Shown: in pieces, positions 7,170-63,652 of the stretch
How the letters are laid out: each line of letters opens with the position of its first letter
How positions within the stretch are numbered: the first letter of the stretch is position 1
Source of the DNA: Owenia fusiformis
Taxonomy: Eukaryota > Annelida > Polychaeta > Sabellida > Oweniidae
Direction: 5' to 3'
Assembly: GCA_903813345.2 (NCBI GenBank)
Contig: CAIIXF020000007.1
Location: forward strand, 35,926,538 to 35,990,537
Length of the DNA: 64,000 bases
Notes under the pieces: generated by a model
Seen by the model: only the letters and a program-made list of their open reading frames with translations
What the model was told of the DNA's origin: nothing
Database searches by the model: none
Translations under genes and position numbers: made by a program

Positions 7170-7327
7170 TGTTGACATAGATTGATGAGGTCTTTATCTG
7201 TTGTGTTGGGAGTGAGGCCACGGATGTAGAGGTTTGTACGGCTAAGTTGTTCCCCAGAGCTATTACTGGACTGACTGCTTGTGGTATTGGGGCTGGCGGC
7301 AGGCATAGTGCGGCTAGATGGGTAGGT
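7170..7327 (-). CDS. RBMS/shep-family gene, coding exon 3 (linker and start of RRM1)
   Basis: Exon of 158 nt: 52 codons plus 2 nt, acceptor TTTGCAG|ACCTAC, donor CAACA|GTAAGT. A Ser/Asn-rich linker leads into [14 protein letters not shown] and then [24 protein letters not shown] is the diagnostic entry to the first RNA-recognition motif of the RBMS1-3/shep/SUP-26 family; LYIRGL is RNP2. These proteins bind single-stranded A/U-rich nucleic acid through two RRMs and regulate mRNA stability and splicing (family knowledge). TTDKDL is closer to fly shep than to human RBMS, which has TTDQDL. The exon ends inside the codon before the expected YG-I of RRM1. RNP1 (the KGYGFVDF region) and RRM2 were not found in the remaining 7.1 kb, so the gene continues past the left edge. 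Confidence 0.93.
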
Positions 7328-46819: not shown

Positions 46820-47640
46820 GAGAAATTGACAATAGACCTCACGCCTTGTTCTTCTTTTGAAAACTGACCCAGGGGTAGACTATAGACATCTCCCCTTTCC
46901 TTGCAAAACTAGCCCAGGGTTGACAATAAATCTACCCCTTTTCCTTAGAAAACTGACCAAGGGGTTGACAATAGACCTTACCCCCCTCTTCTTTGAAAAG
47001 TTCACTCAGTAGTTGACAATAGACCTAACCCCACCTTCTTTCTCAAAATATGACTCAAGTGTTGACAATAGACCTCACCCCTCCAACTCCCCTATAAAAC
47101 AGACCCAGGGGTTGACAATAGACCTCACCCCTCCAACTCCCCTATAAAACAGACCCAGGGGTTGACAATAGACCTCACCCCTCCAACTCCCCTATAAAAC
47201 AGACCCAGGGGTTGACAATAGATCTCACTCCTCCAACTCCCCTATAAAACAGACCCAGGGGTTGACAATAGATCTCACTCCTCCAACTCCCCTATAAAAC
47301 AGACCCAGGGGTTGACAATAGACCTCACCCCTCCAACTCCCCTATAAAACAGACCCAGGGGTTGACAATAGATCTCACTCCTCCAACTCCCCTGTAAAAA
47401 AACCCAGAGATTAACAATAGACCTCACCCCTCCAACTTCCCTATAAAACAGACCCAGGGGTTGACAATAGACCTCACCCCTCCAACTCCCCTATAAAAAA
47501 GACCCAGGGGTTGACAATAGACCTCAACCCTCCTTCTTTTGAAAACTTACCCAGAGACTAACAATAGACCTCACTCCTCCAACTCTCCTATAAAAACAGA
47601 CCCAGGGGTTGACAATAGACCTCAATCCTCCGTCAAACCC
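46820..47640. repeat. 50-bp minisatellite, ~16 copies
   Basis: The unit is CTCCAACTCCCCTATAAAAC, AGACCCAGGGGTTGACAATA, GACCTCACCC. The left units are diverged, the central ones (47080-47390) nearly identical, the right ones diverged again. Confidence 0.95.
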
Positions 47641-51182: not shown

Positions 51183-51365
51183 ATTAGGAGTGTAGCTTCC
51201 ATAGGCAGCAGGGTGTGGACTCGCATAGCGGTTGCCTTGGTTACGATAGAAAGATGGCGGCCAAGCTGTTGCCTGCTGGTTTGGTGGATAGGTGGAGCCA
51301 GGGGTTGCTGGTGTGGCTGTAGGTGACATGGTACTCCTCTTCTGTGTGTACACTGGCCGTGATTG
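51183..51365 (-). CDS. RBMS/shep-family gene, coding exon 2 (low-complexity N-terminal region)
   Basis: Internal exon of exactly 61 codons, phase 0 at both ends. The acceptor is TTTGCAG|CAATCA, ending at 51366, and the donor is CCTAAT|GTAAGT, at 51182-51177. The peptide starts QSRPVYTQKRSTMSPTATPA and ends AAYGSYTPN. It is a disordered Pro/Thr/Ser/Gln/Tyr-rich segment, comparable to the tail before RRM1 of Drosophila shep, which also has an AYTP-type motif and a Thr/Pro-rich stretch. It has no recognised domain of its own. Phase and strand join it to exon 1 upstream and exon 3 downstream. The region is locally GC-rich compared with its surroundings, as expected for coding sequence. Confident as an exon; the assignment to this gene rests on matching phases and on the N-terminal composition of the family. 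Confidence 0.85.
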
Positions 51366-52214
51366 CTGCAAATAAACAAACACAGATTGAAATTAAATCA
51401 TGATTCAAAAAATAGAGAGTTATAAACCAAAGTCATCAATGTAGTGATATAATCAAAATTACAATGTACACTTTGATTTTTCTGCAGATAAACAATTGCA
51501 ATAACTCAAGATGCGAGTAGGTAGTTACCAGTTTCGCCACCATGTGGCTACTTCAGAAGTCACATTTCTATTTTTAATGACGTAAATCAAGATGATTTCA
51601 ACTCGCATCTAGTCTATTACTTCTAGGTATAGTTCCAATAATAGAGTTGTAAACAAACAGTGTAATGATAATCTAAATAAAAAAAACGATGCATTTTCAA
51701 TATATTCTCTATATCGTCCCTTAATTTCCTCACTGGCTGTACATGAATAATGTACGAATAATTACGAACACATACTTAACTCCTTGGAGTATCACTCTAT
51801 CAAATGGGATATTGAAAATTACCTCTAAGTTCAAGATTGCATGTTAGAATTTAGAAAAGTTGTCCTAATCATGTACAGTGATCACTGATCCGTTAAACTG
51901 GTTGATGAAAACACAGAATAACTACACGCAATAATCAAAATACAATATCTCTCTATATAATTGATGATATTATGCATCTGGGATATACTCATATAATGTC
52001 TGCTAATAATCTACAGTTATAAAGATAATACATCCACCTATAAAAATTTCATGTTGACTAAAAAAATATATCTCAGTTTATGAAAAAATAGCGTTATACA
52101 ATTTATAATCAAAATAAAATCCCATTTTATGATTAAGTGCACTAACCATAACTTCTATTGATTAGAGTTTTTTTAGTTAGTTACATACTTTATTGTCAAA
52201 CTATGATACATAAG

Positions 52215-52950
52215 TAATGTAAGATAAGATCAAGAACAGCCTTTAAGACAGGGTAATGTAAGATAATTTCAAGAACAGCCTTTAAGAAATAGTTATGTGA
52301 GATAAGTTCAAGAACAGCCTTTAAGACAGGGTAATGTGAGATAAGTTCAAGAACAGCCCTTAAGACAAGGTAATGCAAGATAAGTTCAAGAACAGCCTTT
52401 AAGACAGGGTAATGCAAGATAAGTTCAAGAACAGCCTTTAAGACAAGGTAATGCAAGATAAATTCAAGAACAGCCTTTAAGACAAGGTAATGCAAGATAA
52501 GTTCAAGAACAGCCTTTAAGACAGGGTAATGTGAGATAAGTTCAAGAACAGCCCTTAAGACAAGGTAATGCAAGATAAGTTCAAGAACAGCCTTTAAGAC
52601 AGGGTAATGCAAGATAAGTTCAAGAACAGCCTTTAAGACAAGGTAATGCAAGATAAATTCAAGAACAGCCTTTAAGACAAGGTAATGCAAGATAAGTTCA
52701 AGAACAGCCTTTAAGACAGGGTAATGCAAGATAAGTTCAAGAACAGCCTTTAAGACAGGGTAATGTGAGATAAGATCAAGAACAGCCCTTAAGACAAGGT
52801 AATGCAAGATAAGTTCAAGAACAGCCTTTAAGACAAGGTAATGCAAGATAAGTTCAAGAACAGCCTTTAAGACAGGGTAATGTGAGATAAGTTCAAGAAC
52901 AGCCTTTAAGACAGGGTAATGCAAGATAAGTTCAAGAACAGCCTTTAAGA
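52215..52950. repeat. 39-bp minisatellite, ~19 copies, in intron 1
   Basis: The unit is GATAAGTTCAAGAACAGCCT plus 19 further bases (TTTAAGACA[A/G]GGTAATGCA type). A 39-bp period without stops on the minus strand leaves a 275-codon open frame of a repeating 13-residue pattern (LKAVLELILHYPV). That is a by-product of the period, not evidence for a gene. Some units form a higher-order pattern (runs of CAAGGTAATGC and CAGGGTAATGTGAG variants repeat in the same order). Confidence 0.92.
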
Positions 52951-53161
52951 GATGATATGAGTAAGAAATAGCTGAATGATTAATGAAACCATAATGGATT
53001 AATAATCCTGGCAAACCAATCATCCAATAGAGGAATATATAATATCCAAGAAATGAAGCATAAACTAGTTTGTTGACGAAAGCCTAGACAGGATTCTGAT
53101 ATGATATTTCACCAATCACTGATGTCCATAATTAACACATTTTGCGGATATGATACTAATC

Positions 53162-54798: not shown

Positions 54799-55210
54799 CA
54801 TCAAGAACAAATGTGAGAGCTGCAGATCAATAGATAGAGTTCTAATATAATATATAAATGCTATGTTTTTCTTAAGTATGATTCATTCCTATTATGAATG
54901 TGAAATGATTTTACAAGCATAAAAACTATTATCTATAAAATACAAAGCCTTTGGAATTACCCAAGTTTATATTAATCATGCTCCTAAAGAATAACTGATA
55001 AAGTGATAATATATTATTCTATAATGCAGTTCTTGCGATTTATACAAAGATTCAATAATCATTACTGAAGATTCATAAGAGATGGAAAAGACATTTTCTT
55101 TAGTTTTTAAAACTTCGTCTCAATTCCATTTCTTCAGTATTATTCATCTCTTTACAATTGCAATACATGTACTGTACAATATATAAATGTGTGCAATAGC
55201 CTTGGACCTG

Positions 55211-56780
55211 TGACTATCAGTAACCTACCTTATACCTCTGTTGTAAACCACATTGGTGACTATCACAGACCTACCTTATACCTCTGTTGTAGACCACATT
55301 GGTGACTATCACTGACCTACCTTATACCTCTGTTGTAGACCACATTGGTGACTATCACTGACCTACCTTATACCTCTGCTGTAGACCACATTGGTGACTA
55401 TCACTGACCTACCTTATACCTCTGTTGTAGACCACATTGGTGACTATCGCTGACCTACCTTATACCTCTGTTGTAGACCACATTGGTGACTATCGCTGAC
55501 CTACCTTATACCTCTGTTGTAGACCACACTGGTGACTATCACTGACCTACCTTATACCTCTGTTGTAGACCACATTGGTGGCTATCAGTGACCTACCTTA
55601 TACATCTGTTGTAGACCACACTGGTGACTATCACAGACCTACCTTATACCTCTGTTGTAGACCACACTGGTGACTATAACAGACCTACCTTATACCTCTG
55701 TTGTAGACCACATTGATGACTATCAGTGACCTACCTTATACCTCTGCTGTAGACCACATTGATGACTATCAGTGACCTACCTTATACCTCTGCTGTAGAC
55801 CACATTGATGACTATCAGTGACCTACCTTATACCTCTGCTGTAGACCACATTGATGACTATCACTGACCTACCTTATACCTCTGCTGTAGACCACATTGA
55901 TGACTATCAGTGACCTACCTTATACCTCTGCTGTAGACCACATTGATGACTATCACTGACCTACCTTATACCTCTGCTGTAGACCACATTGATGACTATC
56001 AGTGACCTACCTTATACCTCTGCTGTAGACCACATTGATGACTATCAGTGACCTACCTTATACCTCTGCTGTAGACCACATTGATGACTATCAGTGACCT
56101 ACCTTATACCTCTGCTGTAGACCACATTGGTGACTATCACTGACCTACCTTATACCTCTGCTGTAGACCACATTGGTGACTATCACTGACCTACCTTATA
56201 CCTCTGTTGTAGACCACATTGGTGACTATAACAGACCTACCTTATACCTCTGCTGTAGACCACATTGATGACTATCAGTGACCTACCTTATACCTCTGCT
56301 GTAGACCACATTGATGACTATCAGTGACCTACCTTATACCTCTGTTGTAGACCACATTGGTGACTATAACAGACCTACCTTATACCTCTGCTGTAGACCA
56401 CATTGATGACTATCAGTGACCTACCTTATACCTCTGCTGTAGACCACATTGATGACTATCAGTGACCTACCTTATACCTCTGTTGTAAACCACATTGGTG
56501 ACTATCACTGACCTACCTTATACCTCTGCTGTAGACCACATTGATGACTATCAGTGACCTACCTTATACCTCTGCTGTAGACCACATTGATGACTATCAG
56601 TGACCTACCTTATACCTCTGCTGTAGACCACATTGATGACTATCAGTGACCTACCTTATACCTCTGTTGTAGACCACACTGGTGACTTTCACTGACCTAC
56701 CTTATACCTCTGTTGTAGACCACATTGGTCAACTATCACTAACCTACCTTATACCTCTGTTGTAGACCACATTGGTGACT
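55211..56780 (-). repeat. 46-bp minisatellite (~34 copies) made from the exon 1 end and its 5' splice site
   Basis: The unit is 46 bp, with an occasional 47-bp copy. On the minus strand it reads TAGTSACCAATGTGG, CTACARCAGAGGTATAAG, then GTAGGT plus six more intron bases. The rightmost copy is the true end of exon 1: 34 nt of coding sequence plus 12 nt of intron. The other ~33 copies therefore sit at the start of intron 1, each carrying the donor core ATAAG|GTAGGT. Variants are mostly C/T at one Gln codon, A/G in CCAATG/TCAATG, and the TCAGTG/TCACTG/TAACAG spacer. The period is not a multiple of 3, and each copy carries stops after the donor, so read-through would truncate the protein. Confidence 0.93.
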
Positions 56781-56846
56781 AGGTGTGTTATATCCCCATT
56801 CTTGTTGTGGAGCTTGTTGAGGGGCCTCTGGGTAATATCCTCTCAT
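56748..56846 (-). CDS. RBMS/shep-family gene, coding exon 1 (N-terminus)
   Basis: Predicted first coding exon of the RBMS/Alan-shepard-type RNA-binding protein whose RRM lies in exon 3. On the minus strand an ATG at 56846 (A at -3) opens 33 codons, beginning MRGYYPEAPQQAPQQEWGYN and ending LQQRYK, rich in Gln, Tyr and Pro like the N-terminal tails of shep proteins. The exon stops after a complete codon at AAG|GTAGGT (donor 56747-56742), and phase 0 matches the phase-0 acceptor of exon 2. No stop interrupts it, unlike most frames around it. The 34 nt before the donor are the source of the adjacent 46-bp minisatellite. Uncertain: the ATG may not be the true start, because AG dinucleotides after T-rich stretches upstream could make this an internal exon. 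Family membership is inferred from exon 3; this exon was identified by phase, composition and splice site. Confidence 0.72.
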
Positions 56847-62597: not shown

Positions 62598-62801
62598 GTG
62601 TCCACTGGAGACAGGTCTTCAGTAGTGAGAAGTGTCCAATGGAGACAGGTCTTCAGTAGTGAGAAGTGTCCACTGGAGACAGGTCTTCAGTAGTGAGAAG
62701 TGTCTACTGGAGACAGGTCTTCAGTAGTGAGAAGTGTCTACTGGAGACAGGTCTTCAGTAGTGAGAAGTGTCCACTGGAGACAGGTCTCCAAAAGTAAGA
62801 A
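62598..62801. repeat. 34-bp minisatellite, 6 copies, related to MITE ends
   Basis: The unit is GTGTCCACTGGAGACAGG followed by TCTTCAGTAGTGAGAA. The array is followed by GTGTTCACTAATACAGGTTG, which resembles the pogo-like MITE terminus, so the unit probably derives from such an end. Confidence 0.93.
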
Positions 62802-63652
62802 GTGTTCACTAATACAGGTTGTACTTTCAGGAAATTGACATTTTTAAAGTTAACAATCTTAATATACTAGTCTACATTTCACAAATTTGTATGGAAGAAT
62901 AAAACCTATGAGAAACACAAAATCAAAGCCTTGACATCATAAGACCATATAAGCTCTCCTAAGACCTATAAACCATTAACAACAGCAAGGGAAGTTCAAC
63001 AACCTTATCATGATTACACTCAGCATACTACAATTAAACAAAATCCAACAATTGATAAGTGAGCAGCATCACCATAGTAGAGAACAAGTGATAGAAGGCT
63101 ATAAACACATATATCAAAGATCTCAAAAAGAGAAATTCTCTTAAATAAAAACTGTTTTACTGTGAACTAACCGTTTGGAATTTATAAATCAGTGTAGTGG
63201 TTGTACGCAATAGCTGAATCTTTGAACTGTCAAATAAAGCTGAATAAATGTCTGAATTAATACATAAATGCCAATTACGGGGACTCATCAGTAACTGAGT
63301 CATATTAATGTCTTAAATGTTATATTCAGCACTTAGAGCGTAGGACTTAAGATGGTATATCATTTTTATCCAACACTAGGGAAAAGGCTACACTTTATAT
63401 CCTATGCTTCAAAAGATTTTAGATGAGATATCATTTTTATTTAGGCTTAAAATCTTGCATCAAATCTCTGACCCCCACTCTTCTTCTTCACTTCCCTAAT
63501 GGAGACTAGGTGTGTATTGAGGTTATAAGAACTTGAAGCAAGACTATTAAGTTCTCCCCTACATAATATTTACTTGCCTAATTGAGTATATAAAAGTATT
63601 AGGGAAAATGTTGTAATTATGTCCCTTGAAAAACAATGGTGAGGGAGACAAA

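Follow-up and report, generated by a model that had tools for sequence, protein, structure and literature searches.

An array of splice donors at an RBMS orthologue

In the annelid Owenia fusiformis, the orthologue of the RBMS/alan-shepard RNA-binding proteins identified here by sequence carries, at its putative first coding junction, a minisatellite whose 46-bp unit joins 34 nt of exon to 12 nt of intron and thus repeats the splice donor in every one of about 34 copies. We consider it likely that this is a tolerated splice-junction minisatellite, one of a class in this genome, in which most or all splicing takes place at the first donor. The array lies in a window of 64,000 nucleotides (C7:35926538-35990537), the whole stretch of DNA that was analysed, and the assembly searched for comparison comprises 498 Mb in 525 contigs. 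The features of the gene are as follows, with positions counted from the start of the window.

56748-56846, minus strand: exon 1, in the long isoform putatively the first coding exon, MRGYYPEAPQQAPQQEWGYNTPSHQCGLQQRYK; 33 codons, ends in phase 0
56736-56747, minus strand: start of intron 1 (12 nt); donor GTAGGT, then an in-frame TAG
55210-56781, minus strand: 46-bp minisatellite, 34.2 copies; donor AAG/GTAGGT in each copy (the slash marks the splice site), copy 1 being the end of exon 1
55210-55216, minus strand: TAGTCAC, partial last copy; its twin at 56775-56781 in the exon is the start of copy 1
52214-52950, minus strand: second minisatellite of intron 1; 39 bp, 18.9 copies, by eye without a splice-site-like unit
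51183-51365, minus strand: exon 2, P/Q/Y-rich; 61 codons, beginning and ending in phase 0, located after exon 1 and before the RRM exons
7170-7327, minus strand: exon with the start of RRM1; further RRM exons lie left of the window

The identity of the gene rests on its two RBMS-type RRMs. Five RRM exon peptides, joined by hand, matched human RBMS1 (PDB 6m75) with an E value of 1.3e-69 over query residues 7-150 of 152. The exons had been placed in order, starting with 7170-7327, by tblastn with approximate RBMS1 and shep queries. A minus-strand Pfam search of the 40 kb left of the window, covering 4 of its 6 loci, also gave an RRM match (E 1.5e-4). In a six-frame Pfam search of the whole window, no usable gene domain was found, and the half-RRM exon at 7170-7327 was missed. 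Matches in the window to nos_propeller (3 members, E 1.1e-7), Cornifin (0.02), KRIT1/FRMD8 (0.07) and Blr (0.06) were taken as repeat or chance effects.

The exon status of the 99-nt frame that starts with the ATG at 56846 is suggested by its reading frame, composition, donor and phase. The array's first unit contains a strong donor that ends this open coding frame. Among 13,168 GT sites in 124 kb, which include those of the array itself, this donor scores within the top 0.56%. Exon 2 joins exon 1 in phase and has a good acceptor (score 4.05). The P+Q+Y fraction of exon 1, 0.45, was the highest of eight candidate frames, with the runner-up at 0.24; the candidates were ATG-to-donor frames of at least 25 codons on both strands of the 124 kb, ending in phase 0 at a donor scoring at least as high as copy 1, and the score was picked after exon 1 had been seen. 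A P/Q/Y-rich N-terminal region before RRM1 is a feature of RBMS/shep proteins, and exons 1 and 2 both have this composition; an alignment of exon 2 to an approximate N-terminal region of fly shep gave weak similarity (E 1.0).

It is nonetheless conceivable that the exon 1 frame is no exon, that the protein starts in exon 2 or later, and that the array is an ordinary minisatellite. The frame is short, and no homologue of exon 1 was found in a paralogue search of the assembly or in a PDB search, both with exons 1 and 2 (besides the locus itself, one weak match at E 0.57 and a single chance-level match at E 0.74, respectively). Codon usage was uninformative as a test, being nearly unbiased in 12 GPCR frames of this genome. 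Moreover, exon 2 contains an internal ATG (ACCATGT), which could be the start of a shorter isoform, and the RRM exon at 7170-7327 also has its own start codon. We regard this explanation as unlikely, given that the frame is the best of the eight by composition, albeit by a post hoc score, that it is in phase with exon 2, and that it sits at the first donor, as in 13/15 other array loci described below. The sequence-only reading had seen in the repeat the donor of a coding exon, multiplied as a minisatellite in the intron; the array, the donor, the frame and the phase bear this out, with the exon itself still putative.

Conservation of the donor block

Tandem Repeats Finder (TRF) gave a period of 46, 34.2 copies and a 95% match, in agreement with the array first described. 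The rightmost unit is the exon end itself, as had been proposed, since copy 1 consists of the final 34 nt of the 33-codon minus-strand frame plus 12 nt of intron. All 34 copies retain ATAAGGTAGGT on the minus strand and with it ATAAG/GTAGGT, and copies are spaced 46 nt apart in 32/33 intervals, the first being 47.

When the units were aligned to compare the donor with the spacer, the donor block was the least variable part: columns -7 to +6 are invariant in 34/34 copies, and all 15 variable columns (of 46) lie outside that block. If the 15 variable columns were placed at random among the 46, the chance of an invariant -3 to +6 would be 0.018, that of the post hoc block -7 to +6 would be 0.0019, and that of any invariant 13-column run would be 0.042. 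Because array copies are homogenised, this invariance is no proof of selection on the donor block; the low variability is suggestive and falls short of proof.

The invariant columns would fit a functional array, in which the share of splicing at copy 1 sets the level of the long isoform and array length tunes RBMS dosage. So would the fact that donors 2-34 all give Val-Gly-stop and that the internal ATG of exon 2 is well placed. We consider such a switch fairly unlikely, because the conservation goes only modestly beyond chance and is confounded by homogenisation, and because the same arrangement occurs at the unrelated genes for UGDH and FANCI, which argues for a genome-wide mutational process over an RBMS switch.

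Predicted consequences of later donors

The frame at donor 1 reads K-V-G-stop, so that Val-Gly-stop follows the donor and use of any later donor would truncate the long form after 35 codons. Thus, the stop that had been foreseen within the repeat is present for every later donor. The predicted loss of frame also stood, whereas the predicted extension of 46n nt did not: with a first spacing of 47, it is 46n+1 (47, 93 and so on). Since later donors add Val-Gly-stop, the first donor should normally be used.

On our proposal for the present state of the gene, the 5'-most donor, which is the sole one continuous with the exon, would carry out most or all splicing, and the 33 identical donors behind it would be decoys that the gene tolerates. 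If donor 2 or 3 were used now and then, this would yield transcripts longer by 47 or 93 nt with a stop after Val-Gly, which may be decayed or restarted at the exon 2 ATG; a restart there would preserve both RRMs.

Each unit also holds an acceptor-like site before the donor, and by sequence micro-exons of 12 nt in CTACAG copies and 9 nt in CAACAG copies are conceivable. Scored with approximate weight matrices, these sites reached 0.38 (CTACAG) and -1.31 (CAACAG), compared with 4.05 for the acceptor of exon 2 and -0.05 for that of the RRM exon.

Two further roles for the repeated donors were considered. One is that RNA structure within each unit masks them, by a 7-bp pairing of -21 to -15 with +1 to +7; the unit does hold this pairing, and several minimum-energy folds include it. 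Compared with their shuffles, five array stretches folded no better (z -0.69 to +0.93). In a tandem of consensus units, the accessibility of the donor was not low, with 71% of up to 300 shuffled flanks at or below it. We therefore rejected masking as highly improbable. The other is that the array titrates U1 snRNP, for which it offers 34 good donors within 1.6 kb, each of the high score given above; U1 snRNP is very abundant, and such a sponge seems to us highly improbable.

Birth and growth of the array

The TAGTCAC at the 3' end of the array, after copy 34, is the same 7 bp that begins copy 1. The first duplication thus probably took place between two 7-bp direct repeats, one in the exon and one in the intron, a pattern that fits slippage at the junction, or repair there, involving short direct repeats. 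The duplicated exon 1/intron 1 junction may then have expanded through multi-unit duplication. Long exact self-matches within the array (183 nt at a two-unit lag and 168 nt at a twelve-unit lag) point to multi-unit expansion after the initial duplication, and such internal duplications make copy-number variation at the RBMS array plausible.

A search of the 498-Mb assembly with a 27-nt core of the unit at no more than 2 mismatches, in which some stretches, gaps included, read N, returned 34 matches, all in this array. One copy of the locus was found in the one assembly searched.

Donor-bearing arrays at other genes

We searched the assembly for other arrays of this kind. A first search, for three tandem AGGTRRGT octamers at steps of 24-54 bp, gave 926 + 1,001 = 1,927 matches; the 100 listed formed 8 clusters at C1:0.44-11.97 Mb, two with a common unit, and thus 7 loci. 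A second, for AGGTAAGT at steps of 36-54 bp, gave 368 matches compared with 118 for the reverse; the 100 listed formed 11 clusters, of which 2 were already in the first search and 2 were near-identical, leaving 8 further loci. At 13/15 sampled loci, the 5' flanks, judged by eye and not blind, were read as showing an array that sets in where a coding exon ends; this reading is uncertain at L028 and L034/L044. L037 failed the rule-based exon call described below, and the array at L042 starts at the GTGAGT donor of a short exon. Extrapolating from about 12.5 listed rows per cluster, about 150 clusters would be expected from the 1,927 matches.

L042 and L043 (C6:14.30 and 14.34 Mb) are near-identical exon-plus-array loci 33 kb apart, so a local duplication seems to have taken the donor array with it.

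Homology supports the exon at 7/15 loci (Pfam or PDB), which encode UGDH, FANCI, CTDNEP1-like, BLOC1S5, Rieske, tetraspanin and USP-like proteins. For the Pfam test, the 252 nt before the first donor were translated in three frames at 12 loci (not L034, L038 or L042/L043) with a threshold of E no greater than 1e-3. Six families were found, one frame each: Muted/BLOC1S5, UDP-glucose dehydrogenase, Rieske_4, NIF phosphatase, FANCI_S2 and tetraspanin. The seventh locus, L045, has a USP-like exon (PDB 2.6e-5). In a separate Pfam search with 10 exon peptides, 5 had no family. An ABCC5-like exon gave a weak match (0.01) and was left out of the homology-supported count.

In several of these genes, the homology runs right up to the array. 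In UGDH (46/46, 2.2e-18), FANCI (58/58, 1.2e-15) and CTDNEP1 (37/37, 7.6e-12), the PDB match ended only with the final complete codon ahead of donor 1, and Pfam matches extended to the last residue before donor 1 in BLOC1S5 (28/28) and to the last residue of the exon peptide in Rieske. With approximate queries, the next exon was found beyond the array in 4/4 genes (UGDH 5.7e-19, FANCI 2e-11, CTDNEP1 1e-29, BLOC1S5 4e-4). A similar arrangement seems to recur in several more of the conserved genes in this genome.

One further array, at C1:20247310-20247610, has a 49-bp unit with TTTTCAG, a 26-nt exon-like stretch and GTAGGC; it is possibly an amplified whole micro-exon.

Association of arrays with true donors

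As a control set we took 20 AGGTRRGT octamers outside arrays, the first listed on C1, skipping the rows of one array and one adjoining site. Pfam matches were obtained at 6/12 array loci compared with 1/20 control octamers, the latter to a reverse transcriptase (one-sided Fisher P 0.006). A rule that called for an acceptor plus an open frame was satisfied by 10/12 arrays and 8/20 control octamers (P 0.02). When exons also had to reach 75 nt, a cut-off chosen post hoc, 10/12 arrays and 3/20 controls satisfied it (P 0.0002). At L032, the frame chosen by the rule differs from the Rieske frame.

Relative to all occurrences of the octamer, 3.27% of AGGTRRGT (1,927/58,958) gave array matches, compared with 0.99% (482/48,490) for GATGRTRG and 1.61% (528/32,804) for GRTRGTAG. 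The rate at which donor-type octamers lie in arrays is thus 2.0-3.3 times that of two control octamers with the same composition; these rates count overlapping matches rather than arrays. A third control, the backward octamer TGRRTGGA, came near the donor's rate (2,082 matches/82,242 octamers, 2.53%) and was set aside because the rows listed were mostly TGGA microsatellite. Three tandem copies of the acceptor pattern TTTTCAG gave 1,599 matches compared with 293 when reversed; we left this excess uninterpreted because a dispersed repeat was prominent among the matches listed.

The probability of 13/15 would be 0.0009 if the share of true donors were 0.44, the upper estimate from the two controls, and 0.03 if it were 0.60. 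AGGTAAGT, which supplied half of the sample, may well have a higher share of true donors, so the excess is not secure. We therefore regard an excess of arrays at true donors as likely but not secure.

Choice among repeated donors and acceptors

Use of donor 2 would bring an in-frame stop in 7/12 arrays (RBMS and 11 others; L028, L034, L038 and L042 left out), and in these the reading frame permits the first donor only. By their sequences, BLOC1S5, UGDH, the CTDNEP1-like gene and Rieske, which belong to this group, would hardly be workable unless donor 1 prevails. The remaining 5/12 arrays have an open frame and a first spacing divisible by three, so later donors could be usable in some genes with an open first unit.

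The FANCI donor array (L067:13-2238; C5:3182612-3184837) has 41 copies of a 54-bp unit, the first of which is open and in frame; its donor 2, if used, would insert 18 residues. Open, in-frame first units also occur at L027, where a tetraspanin-like transmembrane exon has a donor array of 54-bp units (from about 1471), and at L031, where an S/P-rich exon has one of 33-bp units (from about 1482); the units of these two could be used as coding repeats.

Acceptors are repeated as well at two of the genes.

L066:1581-1972 (C2): UGDH acceptor array; 91 bp, 4.3 copies, upstream of the exon
L045:147-2328 (C4): USP-like acceptor array; 81 bp, 27 copies (TRF), 24 exact acceptor copies

In the UGDH exon after the donor array, the acceptor and the first 26 codons are present four times, and the last copy is the full exon. 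The USP-like exon has an acceptor array upstream, whose last copy is the real exon, and a donor array on the other side. In both genes, it is the exon-continuous acceptor copy that preserves the protein.

Classical duplicated-donor experiments have reportedly often favoured the intron-proximal site, which counts against splicing at the first donor, and the slightly greater conservation of the donor block than expected could mean that later donors matter. Splicing mostly at the first donor is supported by the ABCA7 precedent described below, by the stop in 7/12 arrays and by the homology that reaches donor 1. On a wider scale, we tentatively suggest, at a little under an even chance, that splice junctions are preferred birthplaces of minisatellites, that about 100 or more genes (by extrapolation) carry arrays of their own donor and some of their own acceptor, and that the exon-continuous copy is the one used. 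If true, this would amount to a general rule for the choice among identical splice sites, visible in natural sequence.

Comparison with known repeats at splice junctions

Arrays of this kind are themselves already known from human ABCA7, CBS and IFI6; their recurrence across one genome is the new part. A paper by Lievers (2001) reportedly concerns the CBS 31-bp VNTR, and one by Turri (1995) is said to concern the IFI6/G1P3 donor minisatellite. The IFI6 repeat unit is 12 nt long and keeps the frame, unlike the 46-nt, stop-containing unit of RBMS. Intron gain by tandem duplication across an intron-exon boundary is alike in duplicating such a boundary, but it yields a new intron, whereas the RBMS intron instead gains many copies of its own donor.

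The VNTR in intron 18 of human ABCA7 has a 25-bp unit in about 12-427 copies and starts at the canonical donor GT, and retention of one unit, which breaks the frame and brings a premature stop, gives an alternative isoform (PMC5954066). Like the RBMS array, it begins at an exon donor and its units are potential donors. It differs in that its unit starts at GT, whereas 34 of the 46 nt of the RBMS unit are exonic, in lying in another gene, and in coming with allele and isoform data (PMC5954066).

The human CBS 31-bp VNTR, judging by its numbering, c.1444_1467+7(16_21), comprises 24 nt of exon and 7 nt of intron in 16-21 copies (PMC2630376). As in RBMS, its unit spans an exon end and its length is not a multiple of three; it lies at a later exon of a metabolic enzyme, whereas the RBMS array sits at what is putatively the first coding exon in a gene for an RNA-binding protein. 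In a 68-bp duplication of the CBS intron 7/exon 8 junction, splicing uses the more distal of the copies, which is what the acceptor arrays found here would need (PMC2630376). The IFI6/G1P3 minisatellite provides multiple splice donors, and two downstream units are used as donors (PMC4526556); it thus resembles the RBMS array in supplying several donors.

The human examples found were treated gene by gene, and no description of a genome-wide class of donor arrays was found in a literature search lacking most subscription papers; here, at least 7 conserved genes show the arrangement, and the loci judged by eye to do so number a dozen or more. These genes carry several to tens of near-identical tandem donors and so offer a natural test of how cells pick one among many identical splice sites. 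They also raise the question of why splice junctions would seed minisatellites, and donor arrays may disturb gene annotation.

Other minisatellites near the array

The region is generally rich in minisatellites: 34 arrays (period of at least 8, at least 3 copies) cover 8,287 of its 124,000 bp. Further long minisatellites of the window lie at 47061-47631 (50 bp x 11.5) and 62598-62810 (34 bp x 6.3). The 39-bp array of intron 1 (18.9 copies) coincides with a 295-codon open frame on the minus strand at 52196-53083 in which LKAVLELILHYPV repeats; that 39 is divisible by three is probably the sole reason for this frame.
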